NCBI GenBank assembly: GCA_945898015.1
Contig: CAMDGM010000001.1
Location: forward strand, 62,001-126,000
DNA: 64,000 bases
Direction: 5' to 3'
Origin: PVC group bacterium
Lineage (GTDB): Bacteria > Verrucomicrobiota > Kiritimatiellia > CAIKKV01
Part shown: one piece after another, positions 46,252-59,216 of the stretch
Layout of the letters: each line of letters begins with the position of its first letter
How positions within the stretch are numbered: the first letter of the stretch is position 1
Position numbers and translations under genes: made by a program
Notes under the pieces: model-generated
Seen by the model: only the letters and a program-made list of their open reading frames with translations
The model's database searches: none
What the model was told of the DNA's origin: nothing

Positions 46252-47016
46252 TCACGGCCGCAGTTCGGTTATTTGCCGTGACAATCGGGCCACACAACCC
46301 GTTTCGACCCAATTACGGAGCGGATCGTCCGCCCGCATGGATAGAGCCACTTTTGTCCAGGCGTCTTTCGCTTCATCCAGTCGGAGCGATTCCTCCAAGC
46401 GTCGGGGGCCCTCAAATAACCGGGCATACCGCTGGCATTCCCGCTCCATGGCGGAAACGCCCTCATTCTGCCGCTCTCGCTGGCGAGTTTCCTGAAGCAG
46501 CCGAATCGCATCTTCCAGCTCTCCGCTGCATCGGGCTTCCCACGCCCGCTCCACACTTCGCCCGACCGTTTCCGGCATGCGTCCGCCATTCCTATTGCTC
46601 CAGGCCACCGTTCCCGCCGCAACCACCAGCAACAACACGCCCACGCAGGCCCAGCGCCGCCAAACAGGCAACAACTTCAACCCGACACCCCGGCCAACCC
46701 CCGGCTTGCGGAATACAAGCGTCGTTCGCCCCAACGTCACCGGTTCTCCAAGCGCTAAAGACAAGGCGGCCATACGCTTGCCGCCGATTATCAAGCCAGC
46801 CTTGCTGCAATAACCGGGCCAATCTTCCAGCACAATCCGCTCCCCCTCCAACCGCCCAACGGCATGACGCCTAGACACGCTAAGGTCATCCATTAGCGCG
46901 CAGGCCACGTCGTCCGGTTCGGTCGATCGCCCAATCGAAAAACCGGCGCCAGGAACACTAAATGACTTGCCTCGGCCCGGCCCCTTAACCACGTCAATCT
47001 GCACCATGACTTCCAT
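46252..47016 (-). CDS. FHA domain-containing membrane protein at the end of the Tad locus
   Basis: Start at MEVMVQIDVVKGPGRGKSFSVPGAGFSIGRSTEPDDVACALMDDLSVSRRHAVGRLEGERIVLEDWPGYCSKAGLIIGGKRM, then a TM segment and a helical C-terminus. Confidence 0.85.
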   Translation of the reverse strand: MEVMVQIDVVKGPGRGKSFSVPGAGFSIGRSTEPDDVACALMDDLSVSRRHAVGRLEGERIVLEDWPGYCSKAGLIIGGKRMAALSLALGEPVTLGRTTLVFRKPGVGRGVGLKLLPVWRRWACVGVLLLVVAAGTVAWSNRNGGRMPETVGRSVERAWEARCSGELEDAIRLLQETRQRERQNEGVSAMERECQRYARLFEGPRRLEESLRLDEAKDAWTKVALSMRADDPLRNWVETGCVARLSRQITELRP

Positions 47017-47039
47017 CGGAATGCTCCTTTTGCTCGTCT

Positions 47040-47918
47040 CTACATTTCTCCAACGCCGGCCAAATAAACCTTCGCCTGACTGACTAACAGCGGAATGAAC
47101 ACCAAACAGGCAAAAGCCGGCACCATAAGCAATAACAGGGGCAATAAAATTTTCTGCTGCGCCTGCGCACCCGACCGCTCCGCCTTCTCCATCCGCTCTA
47201 GCCTCATTTTTTCCGCCTGGGCGGCTAGCACATGCGCCACGCCCGCGCCCAGGTCCAGCCCTTGGCAAAGGATCGCCACAAAACTAGTCATCTCTGCCAT
47301 CCGAATCCTCCGAGCCATCTCTTGCAAAGAGCCCGACAAGGAGCGCCCCAAGGCCATATCACGACGCGTCAGCTGAAGCTCTTCCTTCAGAGGGCCTCCC
47401 CCGACTTTTTGAAGAATACGATCAATTGCAGAACCGAATTCCAGCCCAGCCATGGTACAAAGCGCAAGAAGGTCCACCACATACGGCATGGACCGCCGGA
47501 TTTTCGCATGGCGTTCCTGAATAGCACCCATAACCCACAGGTCAGGGAAGCCCAGCCCCAGCAGGACTAGCACGGCGTGCAACCAAAAACCAAAGGGCAT
47601 GCCAGCCAAAAACAGGAATGTGGCTAGGACAAACCGAAGCGACATATATTCATCAGGCCGAATCACATGCCCAAAACCGGCTGCCGTCAAACTGCCCTGG
47701 ATCCAGCGCCCCCAGGCAGGAAGCCAGGCAAGTATCCGGCGTGAGGCAGGAGCAAACAGAACAAACGCCGGCCGAAGGCCTAAAAAGATCGCAGGCTGTT
47801 CAGCCAAACCCTTTCGCTCCTCGGGCTCGGCGGAGATGGCCGTCATCACGCAAAAGGCGATCGCGCCCGTCGCCACGGTCACGCACAACACCGATAATTC
47901 GAAAAACACATTTTGCAT
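47040..47918 (-). CDS. tadC: Type II secretion system F family protein, TadC-like
   Basis: IRRSMPYVVDLLALCTMAGLEFGSAIDRILQKVGGGPLKEELQLTRRDMALGRSLSGSLQEMARRIRMAEMTSFVAILCQGLDLGAGVAHVLAAQAEKMRLERMEKAERSGAQAQQKILLPLLLLMVPAFACLVFIPL. Confidence 0.92.
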   Translation of the reverse strand: MQNVFFELSVLCVTVATGAIAFCVMTAISAEPEERKGLAEQPAIFLGLRPAFVLFAPASRRILAWLPAWGRWIQGSLTAAGFGHVIRPDEYMSLRFVLATFLFLAGMPFGFWLHAVLVLLGLGFPDLWVMGAIQERHAKIRRSMPYVVDLLALCTMAGLEFGSAIDRILQKVGGGPLKEELQLTRRDMALGRSLSGSLQEMARRIRMAEMTSFVAILCQGLDLGAGVAHVLAAQAEKMRLERMEKAERSGAQAQQKILLPLLLLMVPAFACLVFIPLLVSQAKVYLAGVGEM

Positions 47919-47931
47919 AGCAATCCTCCTG

Positions 47932-48768
47932 TTACACTTTCACCGTTGCCATACTGCGGATCACCAGCAACGCCAGTCCGTTGAATACCGTGCCAACAAC
48001 CAGCAACCCCTTCCCCCACACCGTTGAAAACACACCCCGAACTCCGGCGGGGTCCAGACATAACCACCCAATCAATAACAGATACGGAAGGGCCGCCAAG
48101 GTATACCCCTGAAAACGGGCTTCCGACGTCATCGTCTGCACGCGATCTTCTACCCGCTCACGTTCGCGGATCATCTTGACCAACCCATCGAGAATGCGGG
48201 TCAAATCTCCACCCGTCTGGCGCCCAACCTGGACGGCCGTGACAAAAATCCGCACGCTTTCACCCTCCATGCGGGCAACAAGTCGCTCCAGCCCCTCATC
48301 TAATGACATGCCTAGATCCCGGTCCCTCACAACCCGAGCAAATTCCTGGCTAGCCGGGGCGGGCATCTCCCGCGCCACGATGTCCACCGCCTGGCTCAGG
48401 TTAAACCCGGCCCGCAACGAATTAGCCATCATGAGCAGCACATCCATGAACTGCTGATGAAATCGCCGGCAACGCCAGGATTGATAACCGGAAAGAGCCC
48501 AGCCCGGAACCATCAAGCCTGCACCCATAGCCAGCGTCGCCAGCAGCAGACTGCCCGTGAGTCCATACGCCCCACATCCTGCCAGCGAAGAGACAAGCCC
48601 TATTCCCGCCAGAACCACCCGCGTACCCAACGTCACGCGCTCGCGGCCAAACCCTTCCGCGACCGTCGCCGCCGTTTCGCGCACATATTGCCACGCGGCG
48701 GGCACGAGCACCCAGGCGGCGGCAAAAGCCGCGGACCAAACACCTAAATCCCAAATAGTGAATTTCAT
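47932..48768 (-). CDS. tadB: Type II secretion system F family protein, TadB-like
   Basis: Start at MKFTIWDLGVWSAAF. FHQQFMDVLLMMANSLRAGFNLSQAVDIVAREMPAPASQEFARVVRDRDLGMSLDEGLERLVARMEGESVRIFVTAVQVGRQTGGDLTRILDGLVKMIRERERVEDRVQTMTSEARFQG. Confidence 0.93.
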   Translation of the reverse strand: MKFTIWDLGVWSAAFAAAWVLVPAAWQYVRETAATVAEGFGRERVTLGTRVVLAGIGLVSSLAGCGAYGLTGSLLLATLAMGAGLMVPGWALSGYQSWRCRRFHQQFMDVLLMMANSLRAGFNLSQAVDIVAREMPAPASQEFARVVRDRDLGMSLDEGLERLVARMEGESVRIFVTAVQVGRQTGGDLTRILDGLVKMIRERERVEDRVQTMTSEARFQGYTLAALPYLLLIGWLCLDPAGVRGVFSTVWGKGLLVVGTVFNGLALLVIRSMATVKV

Positions 48769-48788
48769 CCGTACTTCCTCCGGTACTG

Positions 48789-50210
48789 TTACAAGCTCGG
48801 CCACTCATACGGGGATGGCCAATCGAAGGGAAACCATGAAAACAAATCCATGCCTTCCCAATCATCCAAGCCTGTCAAAGCCTTTATCACCTCGGAAAAA
48901 CAAAGTGGAAACTCGAGCGTATTGGCCCCCACACGTGTTTCCGGGAAAGCGCCGCGTGACCCAAGCAAGTTCTGAACACACACCTTTACGTCCGTTTTCT
49001 CGCCTCCGCTGTTCGGGGCTCGAATAAGCCGACTAAGAAACGCCAACCCTTTGTCCAAACCCTCTTTCATCTTTTCACCTGAAGCCTGAAGGGGTTTCAT
49101 CACCTGCTCCTCGAACTTTCGGACCGCGTCTTGTCCCAACTTCCGCACGACGCCAAAACCAGACTCATGGAGCTTACGCAAGGCCTGAACACCTAACTGA
49201 GTCAGCGCAGGCAAAGGATTTTCCTGGAACGCTTTCATCCAGGCCAATAACTGGGTCAAGTCCGTGAAATTCAACTGCTTCATCAATTCTTCTGCATCCA
49301 TTTCAAACTCCACCGCCATTCCGCCACCAAACCCAAGCGATGCCCCCAAACTCGCCATAAAGGAAACCTTGCCGTTCCATCCAAGCGTTGCCACCGCCTT
49401 GCCTTCGGCAAGGGCGCCCGCATACCCCGAAGCAATGAGATTCACATTTGTTTTCACCCCAAACATATGAGCTTCAAAGTTTAACTTGGCTTCGCCCTTC
49501 ACATAAATGCCGGCTGACCCTTCAGCAGCAAACGTAATCCCCTTTTCATCCACATACGCCCCGAAACGGCCCTTGGCAATCGCCGATGCTTCGAGTCGGA
49601 GGCTCCCTTTCAGACCTCCTCCCATGGCCTTATCCCCGAAGTCCAACTTGGGCGTTGATGCTTTCAATTCCGTTTCCAGCCCAATCTGCCCCTTTGCCTC
49701 AAGCCCATTGTCGCCCCAATTAACAACCCCATCCGCTCCCGCGCGGGCGTTCACCGTTGCCGTACCAAGGCTCCCCTTTATTGTTTTGCGATACTCAGGG
49801 CCAATCTCCCCTTCCCAGAGCGCTTCGCCATTCACCAACTTCGTTGCACCCAAAACCCGGCTTGAAGGCGTATTTCCCGTCTTAATCTCGGCCATCTTCT
49901 TCTTGTCAACCGCCCACCCCGCTTCGCCGTTCCACGTGGTTTCGTCCAATTCGTCATGCCAGTCCGAAACACGAGTTTTTGTTTGTACTCCGGTCTTCAG
50001 CGTCTCCCACCGGCCATTCCCTTGGACGGCACGGGTTTGGGTCTCGTGAATTTCGGTTTTCACCCGGACAGACGGCTCGGTTTGACGTACGGTCGTCTTG
50101 TCAACGACACGTGTGTTAACTTGAGGTGCGGCGTCCACGCTCAGCCCGAACATAACCGCCATGATTCCGATCCAGCGCCAACTGTTTAAATACGTTGGTG
50201 AGTGCGTCAT
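48789..50210 (-). CDS. Secreted Gly/Ala-rich repeat protein in the Tad locus (uncharacterised)
   Basis: 473 aa, signal peptide; repetitive GLKGSLRLEASAIAKGRFGAYVDEKGITFAAEGSAGIYVKGEAKLNFEAHMFGVKTNVNLIASGYAGALAEGKAVATLGWNGKVSFMASLGASLGFGGGMAVEFEMD. Confidence 0.7.
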   Translation of the reverse strand: MTHSPTYLNSWRWIGIMAVMFGLSVDAAPQVNTRVVDKTTVRQTEPSVRVKTEIHETQTRAVQGNGRWETLKTGVQTKTRVSDWHDELDETTWNGEAGWAVDKKKMAEIKTGNTPSSRVLGATKLVNGEALWEGEIGPEYRKTIKGSLGTATVNARAGADGVVNWGDNGLEAKGQIGLETELKASTPKLDFGDKAMGGGLKGSLRLEASAIAKGRFGAYVDEKGITFAAEGSAGIYVKGEAKLNFEAHMFGVKTNVNLIASGYAGALAEGKAVATLGWNGKVSFMASLGASLGFGGGMAVEFEMDAEELMKQLNFTDLTQLLAWMKAFQENPLPALTQLGVQALRKLHESGFGVVRKLGQDAVRKFEEQVMKPLQASGEKMKEGLDKGLAFLSRLIRAPNSGGEKTDVKVCVQNLLGSRGAFPETRVGANTLEFPLCFSEVIKALTGLDDWEGMDLFSWFPFDWPSPYEWPSL

Positions 50211-50234
50211 AATTGAAACTCCTTTTCTCCGGTG

Positions 50235-51575
50235 TTATTGCTTGCCGTTCCATCCGGGATCTTTCCCCTGTCCAATAAGAATGAGGTCATCCATAAACTT
50301 GACAGCTTGAGCGGCCAAGCTGCTGTGGCCATCCGCCACGGTCGCCATCAGGTGAATTCCCCGATCATAGTCAGCCTGGCTTAACACCAAAAACCGGCCG
50401 AGGTTGTATTGTGCATCTGGAAAATAGGGATCGGCGGCCAGCGCCTTGGAAAAGGCATCCAGCGCCCCGTCCGCGTCCCCACGATGAACGGCGATTACCC
50501 CTAAATCATTCCACGCCCGGGCATACCCTGGTTTCAATTCAACACAATGACGGAACGCGGATTCGGCACGAACAACATCTCCTGTCTTGTCGTAACACAA
50601 GCCGAGGACATACCAGTTTTCAGCAACACCAGGGAATCGGACGGTGCTGGACTCCGCTTGGGCCGTGGCCTCCGACACTCGCCCCTGTTCAATCAGGACA
50701 GAGGCAAGATCATTGCAAACCGCCGGATCAGCGGGATAACGCTTAGCCAACGCTTTCAAAATATCCTCGGCCTCATGCCACCGGCCTCGTCGTCCCTCAA
50801 GTCGCGCCATCTGCAGTTGGGCCTCCGGAAAATCAGGATTTTCGCTCAACATCTCCTGCAGCACTTTTTCGGCCTGATCCAGAACCCCCTCCCGAACATA
50901 GTGGGTTGCGAGCATGAGCTTGTTTCCGGGCGTATTCCCGGAAACCTCAATTAACGCCTTCCAAACGCTTTCCTGCTTCTCCGGCATGCCGGCTTGATCA
51001 TACAAACGTGCCAGCAAAAACAGCGTCTCGGGATCGCCCGAATTCAATTTCAGGCTGACAATCAGGTATTCCGCCGCCAGTCTTAACTCGCCCACCTCCA
51101 GAAGCAACCGGGCCAGGTTGTTTAGCGGCATGGCAAGCAAAGGATTTTCCCGGACAGCCCTCTCAAAAGACTTCTGTGCTTCAGGAATTCGCCCCTGCTT
51201 GAGCAAGACCGCCCCGAGATTATTCCACCCCAGCGCGTTTTCAGAATCCCAGTCCACGGCCTGACGATAATAGAACTCCGCTCGCCCAAGGTTATTCCGC
51301 ATCAAGTACAAATTGCCGGCGTTATTGGCAGCGCCGCTGAATATTCGGCGATCATCCAGTATCGCGTTAGTCCTCGCGCCTGCCAACACCTTCTGGAATG
51401 ACGACAGCGCCTCTTCCAGATTGCCCGCCTCCTGCAATGAAACCGCTTGATTATACGCCTCTGCTGCCCTCATGCTTTTCTCCGGTGCCGCCCCATTTTT
51501 GTTTTCATTTTCTACCTGTGCCTGACAGGCTCCCAAAACCGCCGCCCAAACTCCGATCCACATCATCCTCTTCAT
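50235..51575 (-). CDS. TPR-repeat lipoprotein, TadD-like
   Basis: Start at MKRMMWIGVWAAVLGACQAQ (lipobox LGAC); multiple TPR repeats (ALGWNNLGAVLLKQGRIPEAQKSFERAVRENP, etc.). Confidence 0.88.
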   Translation of the reverse strand: MKRMMWIGVWAAVLGACQAQVENENKNGAAPEKSMRAAEAYNQAVSLQEAGNLEEALSSFQKVLAGARTNAILDDRRIFSGAANNAGNLYLMRNNLGRAEFYYRQAVDWDSENALGWNNLGAVLLKQGRIPEAQKSFERAVRENPLLAMPLNNLARLLLEVGELRLAAEYLIVSLKLNSGDPETLFLLARLYDQAGMPEKQESVWKALIEVSGNTPGNKLMLATHYVREGVLDQAEKVLQEMLSENPDFPEAQLQMARLEGRRGRWHEAEDILKALAKRYPADPAVCNDLASVLIEQGRVSEATAQAESSTVRFPGVAENWYVLGLCYDKTGDVVRAESAFRHCVELKPGYARAWNDLGVIAVHRGDADGALDAFSKALAADPYFPDAQYNLGRFLVLSQADYDRGIHLMATVADGHSSLAAQAVKFMDDLILIGQGKDPGWNGKQ

Positions 51576-51647
51576 GCTTCCTCCTTTTTTCCGGTCGTCT
51601 TCAAACGGGTTCGGTCGCACCCGCGGCCAATACCCAAGCCAGACTGG

Positions 51648-53102
51648 TTATCCCACCTGTCCCCGTGTTGGCTCATCATTTTCACCCCGATGCACGACCG
51701 GGGCCATGCCGGATGAAACGCCTTCCCGAAACATACTTTCATCGACATCAAAGCCGACCGCGCGCAAACGATCAGCAAAAGTCGGCACATGCCCGGTCGC
51801 GCGAAAGACACCCGTCACCCTTCCATGGGCCGCCACGCCCGTCTGCTCATAAACAAAAATGTCCCGAATGCTAATTTCGCCATCGTCGATTCCCAGCACT
51901 TCGGAAATCCGCTCGATTTTGCGGGACCCATCGCTAAGCCGAGCGATCTGCACAACCAATTGAACGGCTGAGGCGATGTTTCTCCGGATCACAACCACCG
52001 GCATCTCCACCGCCATCATCACCAACCCCTCCAGGCGTGCCAACATGTCCCGAGGTGAATTCGCGTGCAAGGTTGTCATCGACCCTTCATGCCCCGTATT
52101 CATGGCTTGAAGCATGTCAAACGCTTCTGACCCTCGGCATTCGCCAACGATAATTCGATCCGGCCGCATTCGGAGGGCGTTTCGCACCAAATCGCGGATA
52201 GTCACTTCGCCCCGCCCTTCCACATTCGCGCGACGCGCTTCGAGCCGGACCAAATTAAGGTGCGTCAATCGAAGTTCTGCCGAGTCTTCAATCGTGATCA
52301 CACGCTCATTGCCTGAAACCGACTGGGAAAGCACATTCAATAGCGTTGTCTTCCCCGTTCCGGTGCCCCCTGAAACAATCACATTTCGTCTTCCGCGGAC
52401 GCATAGGTCCAAAAATCTCATCATGCCAGACGTACAGGAACCGCCCGAAACCAGCTCCGAAGAGCCCATTCCCCGATGGGCGAATTTGCGAATCGTGATA
52501 GTCGGCCCGTCCACCGCCAGGGGCGGCAAAATAATATGAACTCGCGATCCATCACGTTCCAATCGGGCATCCACATACGGCATGCTCTCGTCCACCCGCC
52601 GGCCGATCGGCGCGACAATGCGATCAATGATGCTGGCCAGTTGTTTTGACGTGCCAAAACGTCGATCGGTTAATTCCATCCGTCCATGTCGGGCCACAAA
52701 GATGCGCTCGGGCCCATTGACCATGATCTCTTCCACACTGTCATCTTTCAGCAGATCCTCCAGCGGACCCAGCTCCAGCGCTTCATCAAGCACTTCCTTG
52801 ACCAGCATTTCTCGCTCGTGAGATGACAATGCCTCGTTAAGCCGGTCCAGTTCGAAACGGATGATGTCCTCTGTGCGACTGCGCAAGGCCACCATTCGCA
52901 TGCCTCCTTCCAGCACATCCAAGTTCATCCGTCGTAATTCCTCGTTTTCTTGGACCCGCACCAATAGTCGCGCCTTGATTTCCCGGAACCGATTTTTCCG
53001 GGTCTTCTCGCGCTCCTCAATCACCTCGATCACCGAGGGTCGCGCCGCACTCCGTATACGCCCCCCGTCCGCCCGCATGATGTCCTGCATGTCTTTCATC
53101 AT
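51648..53102 (-). CDS. tadA: TadA/CpaF family pilus assembly ATPase
   Basis: LEDLLKDDSVEEIMVNGPERIFVARHGRMELTDRRF...GRRNVIVSGGTGTGKTTLLNVLSQSVSGNERVITIEDSAELRL...ALRMRPDRIIVGECRGSEAFDMLQAMNTGHEGSMTTLHANSPRDMLARLEGLV. Confidence 0.97.
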   Translation of the reverse strand: MMKDMQDIMRADGGRIRSAARPSVIEVIEEREKTRKNRFREIKARLLVRVQENEELRRMNLDVLEGGMRMVALRSRTEDIIRFELDRLNEALSSHEREMLVKEVLDEALELGPLEDLLKDDSVEEIMVNGPERIFVARHGRMELTDRRFGTSKQLASIIDRIVAPIGRRVDESMPYVDARLERDGSRVHIILPPLAVDGPTITIRKFAHRGMGSSELVSGGSCTSGMMRFLDLCVRGRRNVIVSGGTGTGKTTLLNVLSQSVSGNERVITIEDSAELRLTHLNLVRLEARRANVEGRGEVTIRDLVRNALRMRPDRIIVGECRGSEAFDMLQAMNTGHEGSMTTLHANSPRDMLARLEGLVMMAVEMPVVVIRRNIASAVQLVVQIARLSDGSRKIERISEVLGIDDGEISIRDIFVYEQTGVAAHGRVTGVFRATGHVPTFADRLRAVGFDVDESMFREGVSSGMAPVVHRGENDEPTRGQVG

Positions 53103-54604
53103 TCTTTCTCCTTTTTATTGGCGGCACGGATCTCGCCCGCCGACTGCTTCGCCTTGTCTCTCGCCCCATTACGTAATGACTCCTCCTCGGGACATCCCGG
53201 CACAACTCGCCGGGGTGTAATCAAAATAACCAGCTCGCTTTGTTTCTTTTGGTATTTCACCGACTTGAACAGCTCGCCCAGCACAGGGATGTCGCCTAAC
53301 CCGGGAATTTTGGAAATGTCTTCTGTTGCCGTATGCCCGATTAGAGCCCCAAGGCTAAGTGTCTGTCCCTGTTGAACGTTCACCGAAGTACGCACATACC
53401 GCTTCAGAATGGAAGGATACGAAGCGATAATCGGGCCTAAATTGCTGAACTCAATGCCAACCTTGGTCTCCACATTTCCATGCCGGTCGAGACGAGGTTC
53501 AAGATCCATGCCGATTCCGTACTCCACCTCCTCCACCGCCACGTCCTGGCTACCAGGACCAATGGCCACAATGTGGAATGATCCTCCCGCGAAAAACCGC
53601 CCCTTGCCGCCGTCCTCGCATACCAGATTCTGCGTATAGAGCAAACGGGCCTCTCCCGATTGGAAGTGCGGAACGAGCATTTCAAAAAGCTTGGTCGTCG
53701 CCAATGACACGGACGAAACCGCATCGGCCCCTCCCGCGCCGGCTGCCCATCCGGCCTGAACACCCAGCGTCTGAACGCCACCCCAATCCACGCCCATCTC
53801 ACGCATGGTGTCGAGCGTGATCTCGACAAGCTGGCATTCGAGCAAAAGCAACGGCTTTTCCAGCACGACATCCTGCGGCAGCTCCGCGCCTTTCCACGGC
53901 TTGACTGCCAAAAAACTCCGAATCTGGGGATAAAGAGAGCGGGCGGTCGATTCAATGAAGGCCCGTTCCGCCTCACTAAATACAAGGCCCTGGAGAAACA
54001 GCTCCCGGCCGGAAAACGAAAGATCCACGTTCCCATTTCCTATACGAGCCCGGACCTCCGACAAAATGACAGGCCCAAACCCCGGGTCGAATTCCGTCAG
54101 ATCAACTAGGCCGTCACCCAACATCGCACGCGCTTGAGCCACGCGATCGTACTCCAGGCGAGTGGTAATCCTTCCGGTTACGCGAACTTTCCCCAGCCCG
54201 TCGACCAACGCGATCCCAAACGCGGGCAATGCTTTCCCTTCCGAATCCACAAGCAATGCCCGGACCACCGCATCAAGCGGTCCGGCACCCAGCCCCCGGG
54301 ACACAAAGATCTCGACTTGATCCCGCTCGATTTCATCTTCATCAAACACATACAGCGTCGTCCTCCCTTCCTGAAGCGGGGTCATGATCAAAGAGCCCGT
54401 GACAATTTCAACCCCCACCACACGATCGCCCGCAGCGGCAAGCTCTGCCCGACCCACCACATAGTCCACTGGAAACGCCTGCGGCTTTCCCGCTTTCACG
54501 TCAAGATTAACGCGATGCAAAGCGCCCATACTTTCCGCCGTGGCAAACAGAGTCAACGCCAGGCCCAACATCAGTCTCGCTCCCTGCCTATTATTGCGGT
54601 TCAT
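53099..54604 (-). CDS. rcpA: Type II/III secretin, RcpA/CpaC-like
   Basis: Start at MNRNNRQGARLMLGLALTLFATAESMGA; KPLLLLECQLVEITLDTMREMGVDWGG...GQTLSLGALIGHTATEDISKIPGLGDIPVLGELFKSVKYQKKQSELVILITPRRV. Confidence 0.95.
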   Translation of the reverse strand: MNRNNRQGARLMLGLALTLFATAESMGALHRVNLDVKAGKPQAFPVDYVVGRAELAAAGDRVVGVEIVTGSLIMTPLQEGRTTLYVFDEDEIERDQVEIFVSRGLGAGPLDAVVRALLVDSEGKALPAFGIALVDGLGKVRVTGRITTRLEYDRVAQARAMLGDGLVDLTEFDPGFGPVILSEVRARIGNGNVDLSFSGRELFLQGLVFSEAERAFIESTARSLYPQIRSFLAVKPWKGAELPQDVVLEKPLLLLECQLVEITLDTMREMGVDWGGVQTLGVQAGWAAGAGGADAVSSVSLATTKLFEMLVPHFQSGEARLLYTQNLVCEDGGKGRFFAGGSFHIVAIGPGSQDVAVEEVEYGIGMDLEPRLDRHGNVETKVGIEFSNLGPIIASYPSILKRYVRTSVNVQQGQTLSLGALIGHTATEDISKIPGLGDIPVLGELFKSVKYQKKQSELVILITPRRVVPGCPEEESLRNGARDKAKQSAGEIRAANKKEKE

Positions 54605-54624
54605 GATCCACTCCTTGCACAAGG

Positions 54625-55476
54625 TTAAAGAGGGCCAAGCTCGTCCAGTGATTGACGAGTCGACGTTCGAATTTTGACCGGCACACGAGCGCCAAACACT
54701 TCATCGCCCTTGAGCGAAGACAGCCGTTCCGACGGGGACTGAAATACCTCGACCTTTTCATTCCGCCGATTTCTCAGCACGCAGCGCAAATACGCCATCT
54801 GGGACGCCAAGCTAAGCCGCCACGCTTCCGCCGAGTTTACTTGCACCGTTACGTGGACCACCATCGGCACCGTCATTCCGGGACGGGAAAGCCCAGCGCC
54901 GACATCAGGCGCCGCTTCCGCGCCAACCGCCCGCTCCCCCATGCGCTGGTCCACGGCCAGAACACTGACCGCCTGCGCCAGCACGACGGCGTGACTGCGG
55001 GTTATTTCGGCAGAACTCCCAGCCGATTCAAAAACGCCAATGATATCCACGCGATCATGCGGTTGCAGCAAGCCTGCCAGCCCTCCTTCTCCATCGAATT
55101 TAAGGGTCATCGCACGCTGTCCCTCACCCTCCGCCACGCGGAGCGAAAGCATGCCCGCCCCATCCTGAGCGAGCTTGGTAACCAGAATTTGCTCACCTTT
55201 GCGAATCGGCACCTGAACCATCCCGCCCGCCGCAATCCACTCTGAATTGGTGAAGGCGCCGGGCTGCACAAAAGCCGCAGGCGTCTCTGTCAACACGACA
55301 TCTCGTTCTTCAAGGAGGTGCCCGGCCAACATATCTTTCGCAGCCACCCAAACGGCCGTGCGCACGCCAAACTCAGCGGTGATCTCGGCTGTTTTGCGGG
55401 CTACGTGAACCCGATAAAAGACCCAGGCCAACAAACTCAATCCCACCGCCACCCATACTGTCATTTTCCTGTTCAC
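54625..55476 (-). CDS. cpaB: Flp pilus assembly protein CpaB/RcpC-like
   Basis: VWVAAKDMLAGHLLEERDVVLTETP...SEWIAAGGMVQVPIRKGEQILVTKLAQ...LAGLLQPHDRVDIIGVFESA (SAF-like). Confidence 0.9.
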   Translation of the reverse strand: MNRKMTVWVAVGLSLLAWVFYRVHVARKTAEITAEFGVRTAVWVAAKDMLAGHLLEERDVVLTETPAAFVQPGAFTNSEWIAAGGMVQVPIRKGEQILVTKLAQDGAGMLSLRVAEGEGQRAMTLKFDGEGGLAGLLQPHDRVDIIGVFESAGSSAEITRSHAVVLAQAVSVLAVDQRMGERAVGAEAAPDVGAGLSRPGMTVPMVVHVTVQVNSAEAWRLSLASQMAYLRCVLRNRRNEKVEVFQSPSERLSSLKGDEVFGARVPVKIRTSTRQSLDELGPL

Positions 55477-55496
55477 GTCTTGACTCCTGTTAGTAG

Positions 55497-55856
55497 TTAA
55501 TCACCCGATTCGCCATGCCCCGTTCCGGTCGCAATCCAGTACCGCCTCTTCAGTGTTGCGGAACAGGCCCGCCCGCCAGACAGCAAAGCGACGACTTTCG
55601 GTCGCATCGCCACAGACACACGGCTCTCCACCGGCAAATAACGGAAAGACGGATCGGCATTGCCAACAACAGCGGCAACCAGGCAAGACTGCTGAACTCC
55701 AAACTGGAGACGTCGAGCAGCCAAATCGAGCCGAGCCAACTCCGACAGTGCCAAAAGGAAAGGAATCAAAATCGCGACACTTACCGCCAGCATCTCAACC
55801 GTGACCACGCCATACCGCAAACGCCACCCAATATGGTTCCTTTTCTCTTTCACCAC
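55497..55856 (-). CDS. TadE-like pseudopilin
   Basis: RYGVVTVEMLAVSVAILIPFLLALSELARLDLAARRLQFGVQQSCLVAA, with prepilin-like G|VVTVE junction. Confidence 0.75.
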   Translation of the reverse strand: MVKEKRNHIGWRLRYGVVTVEMLAVSVAILIPFLLALSELARLDLAARRLQFGVQQSCLVAAVVGNADPSFRYLPVESRVSVAMRPKVVALLSGGRACSATLKRRYWIATGTGHGESGD

Positions 55857-56686
55857 TCAAACCCCCATATGTCCGGAATCTCTGGACGTGGATTTACAGA
55901 CCCCGTTTGTACTAATTTTGCTTCGTACTGTGGCTCTGCGCGTTTGCCCTCCCACAACGTCCCACCACAAGGTTTTGCGGTGGCATACGTCCGAAGATTG
56001 GAAACGCCTTGCGATTCCCCTGTCCCCCATTGAAAAAGCCAGGCGTAAAAGGGTCGTTTAACCTGATTGCAAAAATAAATCGTGTCGGAAGAGGATTCTT
56101 TCCGAAGAATTTTGACAGGTACCGGACGGCCTGGGTTATACAGAATCACTTCGCCAATAAAGGGAATCGTCTGTTTAAAAAAGAATCCTAGGCGAAGCGA
56201 CAAGCCCGTAGCATAAGTCAATCGGCCCACTCGGTGATGCGACGTGGGATAGGTCGTCAAAACGGCTGCGGGATCATTCCGTTCTGTGACAACCTTGGCC
56301 GTTTGCAGCGCTTCATCCATGGCTGAAACATTAACCGCCATCTGTCGGGCCAAATTGATGTAATTATACGTTTTATAGGTCCACTCCACCTGCGTCGCCG
56401 TCCGATTACCCGCATCGTAATTTGGAAAAACGTAACAATGTAAAGCCAGGCGGAGTGTTTCTAAAACATCCGCAGCCTGATTATTCATACGAGCAATCCG
56501 ATTCAACCCGCGAGCCTGCTGAACCGCCCCTGAAAACGCAGCCGCATCGGCGCAGACCTGCAGATGCGTTCGCGTCTGAAGGAGCTGGCTCAGGTTAAGC
56601 GTTAACCCCAGAAAAACGGACAGGGCCACCATCAGAAAAGCAAACATGACCGTGATGCGACCAGACCGCAGCGTATTAGTCGTCAT
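55850..56686 (-). CDS. TadG-like protein (N-terminal Tad domain)
   Basis: MTTNTLRSGRITVMFAFLMVALSVFLGLTLNLSQLLQTRTHLQVCADAAAFSGAVQQARGLNRIARMNNQ. The longer ORF start (57202) overlaps the tadE gene and is rejected. Confidence 0.85.
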   Translation of the reverse strand: MTTNTLRSGRITVMFAFLMVALSVFLGLTLNLSQLLQTRTHLQVCADAAAFSGAVQQARGLNRIARMNNQAADVLETLRLALHCYVFPNYDAGNRTATQVEWTYKTYNYINLARQMAVNVSAMDEALQTAKVVTERNDPAAVLTTYPTSHHRVGRLTYATGLSLRLGFFFKQTIPFIGEVILYNPGRPVPVKILRKESSSDTIYFCNQVKRPFYAWLFQWGTGESQGVSNLRTYATAKPCGGTLWEGKRAEPQYEAKLVQTGSVNPRPEIPDIWGFEW

Positions 56687-57116
56687 TGTCGCCTCCCATA
56701 CGCTCGGAAACGCCCGCGGCCATCGACTCCGTTCTGGCGCCAACCCGGCTTTGAAAGGACAACCGGCCTGATGAATCCGGCAAATAGGCCGGGACGCTAT
56801 CCGTAATTTCGACCTGGCAAACTCCGGGACGACCCGAAGAAAACCGGGCACGTACCTGAGGCGTACCCGACATGGAGCTGGCCTCATAATCACGGCGAAC
56901 AAACCATTCGGCCAATCCTGCTCCTCCCTTGACCGCGCAACGACGGGCTGATGAAAACCCAGCTTGCGATTGGCAAACCGACCGATAAAACACATATTCG
57001 AGCGTAAAGAGTCCGGCCGCCAGAAGAGCAAAAAAAGGAAGGAGAAGCGCAAATTCCACGGTTGACATCCCGGAACGATCCCTGCGTATTGAGTCGTTTT
57101 GGTTGTAGTGATACAT
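56676..57116 (-). CDS. TadE-like pseudopilin
   Basis: RDRSGMSTVEFALLLPFFALLAAGLFTLEYVFYRSVCQSQAGFSSARRCAVKGG; G|MSTVE prepilin site. Confidence 0.9.
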   Translation of the reverse strand: MYHYNQNDSIRRDRSGMSTVEFALLLPFFALLAAGLFTLEYVFYRSVCQSQAGFSSARRCAVKGGAGLAEWFVRRDYEASSMSGTPQVRARFSSGRPGVCQVEITDSVPAYLPDSSGRLSFQSRVGARTESMAAGVSERMGGDNDD

Positions 57117-57164
57117 GGTTTGCGCTCCCCCTGCCTGTGTCTGATTGCTTCTACCTCCTTATGC

Positions 57165-57416
57165 TTAGAGTCCCAGGTTTTCCGCGATTTTGTTGAAGGC
57201 ACGGCTGAGTAGATCGTTAAGCTTGGGATTCAACACCGCTGCCGCGCCCACCACGGCTCCCACCACGACCACGGTAAGTGCGATTGTTTCTACCGTGCTC
57301 AAACCCCGCTTGCTCCTCTTGGCGCCGAACCCGATGTCGTGCCATCGACTCCCCATCCGCAGACCAACGGCCTCCATCTTCGCCAATCCCAGCTTCGCTA
57401 GTTCCATCGCCTTCAT
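57165..57416 (-). CDS. flp: Flp family type IVb pilin
   Basis: MKAMELAKLGLAKMEAVGLRMGSRWHDIGFGAKRSKRGLSTVETIALTVVVVGAVVGAAAVLNPKLNDLLSRAFNKIAENLGL; prepilin site G|LSTVE with Glu+5. Confidence 0.9.
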   Translation of the reverse strand: MKAMELAKLGLAKMEAVGLRMGSRWHDIGFGAKRSKRGLSTVETIALTVVVVGAVVGAAAVLNPKLNDLLSRAFNKIAENLGL

Positions 57417-57505
57417 CCTTGTTCCTCCTTTTGGATTATTGCCGTCCTTTTCTCGGAGATCTCCACTGTGGAAATCTTCCCGATTCGGTTGGCGGCATCC
57501 AAGAA

Positions 57506-57522
57506 AGCAGGCCCTGTGCCAA
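57506..57522 (-). promoter_or_regulatory. Candidate sigma-54 (-24/-12) promoter for the Tad locus
   Basis: Minus-strand TTGGCACAGGGCCTGCT, with 10 nt between GG and GC, close to consensus YTGGCACGrNNNTTGCW; about 90 bp upstream of the flp ATG. Confidence 0.72.
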
Positions 57523-57574
57523 CAGCATTAAACACGGGGATCCGGCGTTTTTTCGGGAAAAGTGTTTGATTTCC

Positions 57575-57588
57575 GGACACCGGTGTCC
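57575..57588. promoter_or_regulatory. Perfect 14-bp palindrome, candidate enhancer-binding-protein site
   Basis: GGACACCGGTGTCC, self-complementary, about 53 bp upstream of the candidate -24 element. Confidence 0.55.
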
Positions 57589-57626
57589 AAAGACAGAACA
57601 CGGCCGGCCGATCAACTCATTCACGC

Positions 57627-57660
57627 CAGCACGATTTGTCTGTCAGCACGATTTGTCTCT
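57627..57660. repeat. 17-bp near-exact tandem repeat upstream of the DUF4159 operon
   Basis: CAGCACGATTTGTCTGT followed immediately by CAGCACGATTTGTCTCT. Confidence 0.85.
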
Positions 57661-57710
57661 CTCTGGCCGATTATTCTGGTGTATAGTGACCGCCTAATCA
57701 GGAGCGCGTC

Positions 57711-59216
57711 GTGAAAATTGCCCTGCCTCTGTTCGCGCTGGTCCTCGCCGTCTCGACCTCCCTGGCCGGCGAAAACGACTGGTTCGTCCCCCTGGGTCTT
57801 CCGCCCGTCGCCTCCCCCAAGCGCATCTCCGGCGGCGAAAGCCTGCCCCCTCTCCCGCTCCCTGCCACTCCGCTCCGCCGCTCGGAACGCAAGCGCGAAC
57901 CGGCACCACCCAAGCTCGCCGGCAAAGTCATCTGGGGCGAAAGCGCCTCCTACACCTACCCCAACGGACTCTCCGCCCCCGTCGCCGACTGGAACCTCTG
58001 CCCCGCCGATCTCCAACAGATCCTCCGCAAGGCCGGCGGCGTCCTCGCCCAACCCTATACCCTCGACACCGTCTCCCTCGCCGCCTTCAACCCCGACCCC
58101 GTGGCCATGCCCCTCCTCTTCTTCAGCGGCTCGCGCACCCTCCGCCTCCCCGACGACCAGCTTGCCAAACTCCGCGACTATGTCCTTCGCGGCGGCACCC
58201 TCCTGTGCGACTCCGTCGCCGGCTCCCCCTACTTCACCGAATCCGTCCGCGCGGCCATGCAAAAGGCCTTCCCCGACTCCCCCTTCCGCCTCCTCCCCCC
58301 CGATCACCCCGTCTACCAAATCGTCTACCCCATCACCCAGGTCGGCTTCCCCCGAAATCGCAACTCCAAAACCCCCCGGCTCGAGGCCCTCTACATCGGC
58401 AGCCGCGCCGCCGTCATTCTCTCCCCCTTCGGCCTCGGCACCGGCTGGGATGACCACGAGGTGCCGATTCTCCAGCAGGCCGTCTTCTATGACGTGAAAT
58501 CCGCCAACCAGATCGGCGTCAACCTCATCGCCTACGTCATCGGCTACGCCGAAGCCGGCCGCGAGGAGGGCAAGCCCGAGCTCTTCGGCGCCCACGACCA
58601 GCGCGACCCCACCGACGAATTCGTCTTCGCCCAGATCCGCCACGATGGCGCCTGGAACGCCCATCCCGGAGCCGCGGCCGCCCTCCTGCGCCGAGTCCGT
58701 TCCGGCACCGCCCTGCGCGCCAGCCTCAAGCGAGTGCCCATCGATCCCGGAAAAGACGATCTTGCCAGCACCCCCTTCCTATTCCTCTCCGGCCTCGACG
58801 ATTTCCGCTTCAGCGAGGAGGCCGCCTCAGCCCTGCGCCGCTTCCTCACCGGTTCCGGCACACTCGTCATCAACAATGCGCTCGGCCTGAAAACGTTCGA
58901 CCTCGCCGTGCGCCGCGAACTCAAGCGCATCCTCCCCGAGTCCCCGTTCGAAACCCTTCCGGCCGATCACCCCATCTACCGCGCCGCCTTCACGGTCGAC
59001 ACTCCCGGCTTCTCCCCCGAATCCGCGGCCGCCTCCCAATCCCCCGTGCCCGTGCTTGAAGGCATCACGCTCCGCGGCGACCTGCGGGTCATCTACAGCC
59101 CCTATGATCTCGAGGCCGGCTGGCTCGGCTGTCCCTACCCTGCCGCCAAAACCTACGAGTCCGCCGTCGCCATGCCCATGGGCGTCAATCTCATCCTCTA
59201 TGCCATGACCCACTAG
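57711..59216 (+). CDS. Protein with two tandem DUF4159 domains (GTG start)
   Basis: Two homologous halves: MPLLFFSGSRTLRLPDDQLAKLRDYVLRGGTLLCDS...FPDSPFRLLPPDHPVYQIVYPI and TPFLFLSGLDDFRFSEEAASALRRFLTGSGTLVINN...LPESPFETLPADHPIYRAAFTV. Confidence 0.85.
   Translation: MKIALPLFALVLAVSTSLAGENDWFVPLGLPPVASPKRISGGESLPPLPLPATPLRRSERKREPAPPKLAGKVIWGESASYTYPNGLSAPVADWNLCPADLQQILRKAGGVLAQPYTLDTVSLAAFNPDPVAMPLLFFSGSRTLRLPDDQLAKLRDYVLRGGTLLCDSVAGSPYFTESVRAAMQKAFPDSPFRLLPPDHPVYQIVYPITQVGFPRNRNSKTPRLEALYIGSRAAVILSPFGLGTGWDDHEVPILQQAVFYDVKSANQIGVNLIAYVIGYAEAGREEGKPELFGAHDQRDPTDEFVFAQIRHDGAWNAHPGAAAALLRRVRSGTALRASLKRVPIDPGKDDLASTPFLFLSGLDDFRFSEEAASALRRFLTGSGTLVINNALGLKTFDLAVRRELKRILPESPFETLPADHPIYRAAFTVDTPGFSPESAAASQSPVPVLEGITLRGDLRVIYSPYDLEAGWLGCPYPAAKTYESAVAMPMGVNLILYAMTH

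Follow-up and report, generated by a model that had tools for sequence, protein, structure and literature searches.

The window analysed here, a stretch of 64,000 nucleotides from the genome of a Kiritimatiellia bacterium, carries on its minus strand a Tad/Flp locus with genes for a Flp-like prepilin, TadE/G, RcpC, secretin, TadA, TadB and TadC. The first gene, flp (57165..57416), encodes an 83-residue flp-type prepilin with the cleavage motif RG↓LSTVE and no Pfam match. It is followed by genes for a TadE-like pseudopilin (56676..57116; PF07811), a TadE/G-like pilus-assembly protein (55850..56773; PF13400), a second, small TadE-like protein with a GVVTVEM motif and no Pfam match (55497..55856), RcpC/CpaB (54625..55476; PF16976), the RcpA/CpaC secretin (53099..54622; PF00263) and the TadA/CpaF ATPase (51648..53102; PF00437). 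Further along, domain searches identify a TadD-like TPR protein (50235..51620), the T2SSF proteins TadB (47932..48804) and TadC (47040..47918) and, last in the operon, an FHA-domain protein (46252..47268), whose true start probably lies downstream of 47268 because the open reading frame overlaps tadC. Between the TPR protein and tadB lies a gene for a 473-residue protein without a Pfam match (48789..50210), and an open reading frame of 470 residues occupies the equivalent position in the relative G001 (L067:3223-4635).

The order flp-tadE-tadG-rcpC-rcpA-tadA-tadD-tadB-tadC-FHA runs on a single strand with a largest gap of 48 nt, a compactness that would allow one promoter to drive all of the genes. 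Neither tadZ/cpaE nor a tadV prepilin peptidase was noticed among the open reading frames of the operon (46252-57416). Proteins with an FHA-FHA-TM-TPR architecture are also encoded at several further Tad loci in the class (L107, L113, L115, L119), and the FHA proteins at Tad loci are a hint that the Tad machines of this group may involve the recognition of phosphopeptides. When the FHA proteins encoded close to other Tad loci were considered as candidate activators, their FHA-TM-TPR architecture led to their rejection.

Upstream of flp, the sequence TTGGCACAGGGCCTGCT, read on the minus strand from 57522 to 57506, carries the GG and GC of a -24/-12 promoter 10 nt apart and agrees with the sigma-54 consensus TTGGCACRNNNNTTGCW at 16 of 17 positions, the sole mismatch being C for T at position 13. 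The earlier note had placed this site correctly in both coordinates and sequence, and the flp promoter is the only exact TTGGCACN6TGCW in the window. The 3′ end of the promoter lies 89 nt from the flp ATG (57416), in good agreement with the distance of about 90 bp first given. By the rule of 12 nt past the -12 C, transcription is predicted to start at 57495 on the minus strand, 79 nt 5′ of the ATG, and a Shine–Dalgarno sequence AGGAGG precedes flp at 57424..57429 on the same strand. Only one open reading frame overlaps the promoter, and it is antisense and looks spurious. Promoters were scored with a matrix that approximates the published consensus, for which sites scoring at least 16.5 have a background rate of about 0.0007 per 300 bp.

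The earlier note had made this promoter contingent on the presence of rpoN, and the genome encodes a complete rpoN with the activator-interacting, core-binding and DNA-binding domains all present. Exact TGGCACN6TGCW sites show no enrichment across the genome, with 11 matches against 25 in the reversed control. Five of the 11, including the flp site, score at least 17.4, and every one of these lies 30–105 nt 5′ of an open reading frame: flp, a pseudopilin operon, a pilM-like operon, an amtB-like gene and a 210-residue open reading frame. The other exact sites comprise five within long open reading frames, scoring at most 15.2, and an intergenic one that scores 15.4 and has no open reading frame near it downstream. 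As the top sites stand before open reading frames, sigma-54 appears to be in use in this genome, with the flp site falling within the good set. The sites before the pilM-like and pseudopilin operons are near-perfect sigma-54 promoters (L059:7645-7661, minus strand, and L065:10126-10142, plus strand, on contigs C17 and C5), and a gene for a receiver-domain sigma-54 activator adjoins each, so that sigma-54 seems to control several of the genome's pilus-type systems. Strong sites also precede the ammonium transporter gene, judged by its sequence to be amtB-like (L012, C52:18573), and the 210-residue open reading frame, which resembles a membrane protein (L009, C30:7335).

Further upstream of flp lies the perfect palindrome GGACACCGGTGTCC at 57575..57588, centred at -86.5 from the predicted start. 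Six perfect palindromes of 14 nt occur in the window, so that this one is not significant by itself. It does, however, form only the inner two half-sites, or two thirds, of a 27-nt element with three half-sites, the third of which (GTGTTC, 57596-57601) had been overlooked in the earlier note; its proposal of the palindrome as an activator site is thus upheld as to presence and position and falls short as to extent. The full predicted upstream activator site, GTGTTC-N7-GGACAC-CG-GTGTCC, occupies 57575..57601 on the minus strand, -80 to -106 from the predicted start, and reads from 57601 to 57575 as GTGTTC-tgtcttt-GGACAC-CG-GTGTCC. Elsewhere in the genome the simpler pattern GGACAN4TGTCC is found at C4:111349 and C45:24838, in both cases within open reading frames and with no sigma-54 site nearby. 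The earlier note had called for a search for the palindrome near other -24/-12 sites; these two sites give no sign of a wider regulon.

The window's own genome (G000) was compared with a set of 146 relatives, among which Flp and a profile of the secretin place this Tad subtype only in G000, G001 and G042; a fourth genome, G073, has a marginal Flp match to which the secretin lends no support. G001 belongs to the same family as the window genome (one contig, CALHRZ010000004.1), and G042 (JAIOPI010000019.1, recorded as a Lentisphaerae bacterium) belongs to the same class. The arrangement is therefore known from three genomes, two of them of one family, and the genomes include metagenome assemblies. 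In both relatives a strong sigma-54 site lies directly 5′ of flp, CTGGCACATCCCGTGCA in G001 and TTGGCACGCCTTTTGCG in G042, the former with G for T at position 13 and hence missed by a strict promoter pattern. The flanking DNA of the flp upstream regions is no longer alignable between the genomes, and a plain DNA alignment misaligned the promoters and so hid a conservation that a motif-anchored comparison revealed. The motif-anchored comparison, made in place of the alignment that the earlier note had called for, shows promoter and element retained in G001 and G042, and the loss of both elements, which it had named as a refutation, was seen in no relative found with this type of flp locus.

The element reads GTGTCC-ggatatc-GGACAG-GG-ATGTCC in G001 and GTGTTC-actttcc-GGGCAC-GAG-GTGTCC in G042, with a first spacer of 7 nt in all three genomes. 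When the half-sites of the window, as the sole query, were searched for in the 450 nt 5′ of the relatives' promoters, the best matches had 3 (G001) and 1 (G042) mismatches in 18 positions, counts that were equalled by 1 and 0 of 1000 shuffles, respectively. The common pattern GTGTYC-N7-GGRCAN-N2/3-RTGTCC matches once in each of the three genomes, upstream of flp every time, and has no match in their reversed controls; since the pattern was derived from these three sites, its informative part is the lack of other matches. The 3′ end of the element stands at -80, -91 and -113 in the three genomes, in steps of 11 and 22 nt that approximate whole helical turns.

These comparisons bear on two readings in which the features upstream of flp would have little to do with sigma-54. 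The palindrome is located between divergent genes, at a distance of 123 bp from the start of a DUF4159 gene (57711 onward), and might be the operator of that gene or the site of an ordinary repressor. The gene upstream of flp differs among the three genomes, however, being a different divergent gene in G001 and a same-strand activator gene in G042, and the element is still found with flp in both. It therefore appears to belong to flp and to travel with it, and we regard an operator unrelated to sigma-54 as highly improbable. The same degree of improbability attaches to an accidental likeness to the consensus beside an ordinary palindrome, with flp transcribed from a sigma-70-type promoter: the lack of genome-wide enrichment and the number of palindromes in the window speak for chance, but the promoter and palindrome rise above chance because both are conserved in two relatives whose flanking DNA has diverged beyond alignment. 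A scan of 57380-57740 found no sigma-70-like promoter, although such scans are weak for this phylum. At the level of sequence, the comparison confirms that the flp-tad genes lie behind a predicted sigma-54 promoter with an upstream activator site of its own.

Tad loci elsewhere in the class gave a different picture. In 41 of them, examined over as much as 6 kb 5′ of rcpC, no strong sigma-54 site precedes flp, an flp-like gene being recognized in about 31 of the 41 and the rest ending at contig edges or having a pilin outside the filter; the sole site scoring at least 14.5 lies in mid-operon. Tad loci across the class were accordingly rejected as further sigma-54 cases. The scan included a second Tad locus of the window's own genome (L069, G000:C40:8265-8624), which is typical of the class: it encodes two Flp pilins of the GQxxxEY type and is preceded by no strong sigma-54 site.

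A candidate for the activator is provided by G042, where a 625-residue protein is encoded directly 5′ of flp and on its strand. This protein combines FHA, Sigma54_activat and Fis-type HTH domains, and its gene is itself preceded by those for a PP2C phosphatase and a Ser/Thr kinase, the latter with two kinase stretches. The window's own genome has a full-length orthologue at G000:C20:8223-10031, 48% identical to the G042 protein, with PP2C and kinase genes just 5′ of it and one opposite-strand open reading frame between. In G001 the orthologue (54%) is at C4 and the PP2C–kinase pair, the PP2C judged by sequence, is unlinked at C1; in both G000 and G001 the activator gene is unlinked to the Tad locus. 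The activator is intact with respect to the GAFTGA loop, the Walker A motif and the FHA residues GR, SRxH and NG (Pfam PF00498 and alignment), and the three genomes share a nearly identical recognition-helix region (LGISRS/TTLYE). It gives no Response_reg match and is thus not a receiver-domain activator of the NtrC type. The earlier suggestion of NtrC-type, switch-like control is consequently supported as regards sigma-54 and revised as regards the regulator, which is likely to be an FHA-domain protein.

Among the 146 relatives, full-length orthologues of this activator occur only in G000, G001 and G042, with a further copy in G084 that is cut by a contig end. The activator thus co-occurs with the Tad subtype in three of three genomes, against one of 143 others (Fisher p = 8e-6, phylogeny being ignored). 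A profile of the N-terminal half finds full-length matches in the same three genomes only, among 390 genomes of the phylum, and a scan of the GTDB collection added no further full-length relative. The G084 copy (L126:7618-9000) has GAYTGA rather than GAFTGA in its AAA+ loop, and in this genome, which is 85% complete, neither RcpC nor the subtype secretin was found.

The genome encodes seven sigma-54 activators, none of them within the Tad locus of the window, and the six others (four receiver-domain proteins, one PAS protein and one shorter FHA protein) could act at flp. Control by sigma-54 might then be real while one of these six binds the element, a reading that we consider unlikely, if less remote than the two weighed above. 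Only the 600-residue FHA activator has full-length orthologues confined, G084 apart, to genomes with the Tad subtype, and it is the one that adjoins flp in G042, whereas two of the receiver-domain activators adjoin the other sigma-54 pilus operons as their own.

We therefore prefer the FHA activator, and think it likely that this protein, probably controlled by Ser/Thr phosphorylation, binds the three-half-site element and so brings about transcription of the Tad operon by sigma-54. Under this reading, the promoter at 57506-57522 would serve sigma-54 RNA polymerase for the flp-tad operon and would open only in response to an activator. That activator is most likely the FHA-AAA+-HTH enhancer-binding protein whose gene lies at G000:C20:8223-10031. 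We infer both that a multimer of this activator would bind 57575-57601, approximately 80–106 nt 5′ of the start, and that the Ser/Thr kinase and PP2C phosphatase would probably control it by way of the FHA domain. Once bound, the activator would loop the DNA to the closed sigma-54 complex and open the promoter with ATP hydrolysis.

Control by sigma-54 is well established for type IVa pilins, as with PilS-PilR and pilA in Pseudomonas, and the sites of PilR may likewise hold repeated GTGTC units. For Ralstonia, control of pilA by PehR-RpoN1 has been proposed (PMC4371752). In the type IVa systems of both genera, as in the window, a pilin gene is preceded by a -24/-12 promoter and, further 5′, by a site for an activator, but the window pilus is of the Tad/Flp type and its candidate activator has an FHA domain in place of a receiver domain with a histidine-kinase partner. 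Closer in domain content are the FHA-domain enhancer-binding proteins that Jelsbak et al. (2005, cited in PMC12288465) are said to have described in the development of Myxococcus xanthus. These FHA, AAA+ and HTH sigma-54 activators are thought to be set by Ser/Thr phosphorylation; the candidate resembles them in having these three kinds of domain. The Myxococcus proteins act in fruiting-body development, in contrast to the Tad operon proposed as the target here, and we know of no Tad operon among their targets. Many type VI secretion loci also carry a Ser/Thr kinase, a phosphatase and FHA proteins, the FHA protein usually not being a sigma-54 activator itself. Type VI secretion clusters, according to Bernard et al. 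2011 as cited in PMC3767616, are under sigma-54 and cognate activators, and would resemble the window in being surface machines under sigma-54.

In the papers searched, regulation of Tad loci is described in other terms. In P. aeruginosa the Tad locus is regulated by PprA-PprB, and quorum sensing and SigX have also been described for Tad regulation (PMC10418997), while in Pectobacterium a two-component system flanks flp-tad (PMC3767616). PprA-PprB and the Pectobacterium system resemble the one proposed for the window in being dedicated activators of flp-tad; unlike the window candidate, they are two-component regulators and are not reported there as sigma-54 activators. A study of the sigma-54 activator VasH could not confirm that it acts on flp-tad (PMC3767616), no Tad cluster change is listed for an rpoN mutant of P. 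fluorescens (PMC9207406), and a 2025 survey of sigma-54 regulons leaves tad/flp unmentioned (PMC12316311). The remark in the earlier note that Tad loci are not usually discussed as sigma-54 dependent is consistent with the open-licence literature searched, in which no such control of Tad pili is described; an earlier report elsewhere is possible.

Tad pili are widespread adhesive machines, and the present case supplies a defined promoter, a single candidate activator and a predicted activator site of 27 nt found once in each genome. We lean slightly towards a combination of eukaryote-like Ser/Thr kinase and PP2C phosphatase, FHA-domain sigma-54 activator and one target per genome that would amount to an all-or-none pilus switch set by phosphorylation. 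The arrangement points to control of surface attachment by a Ser/Thr kinase pathway in this little-studied bacterial group.
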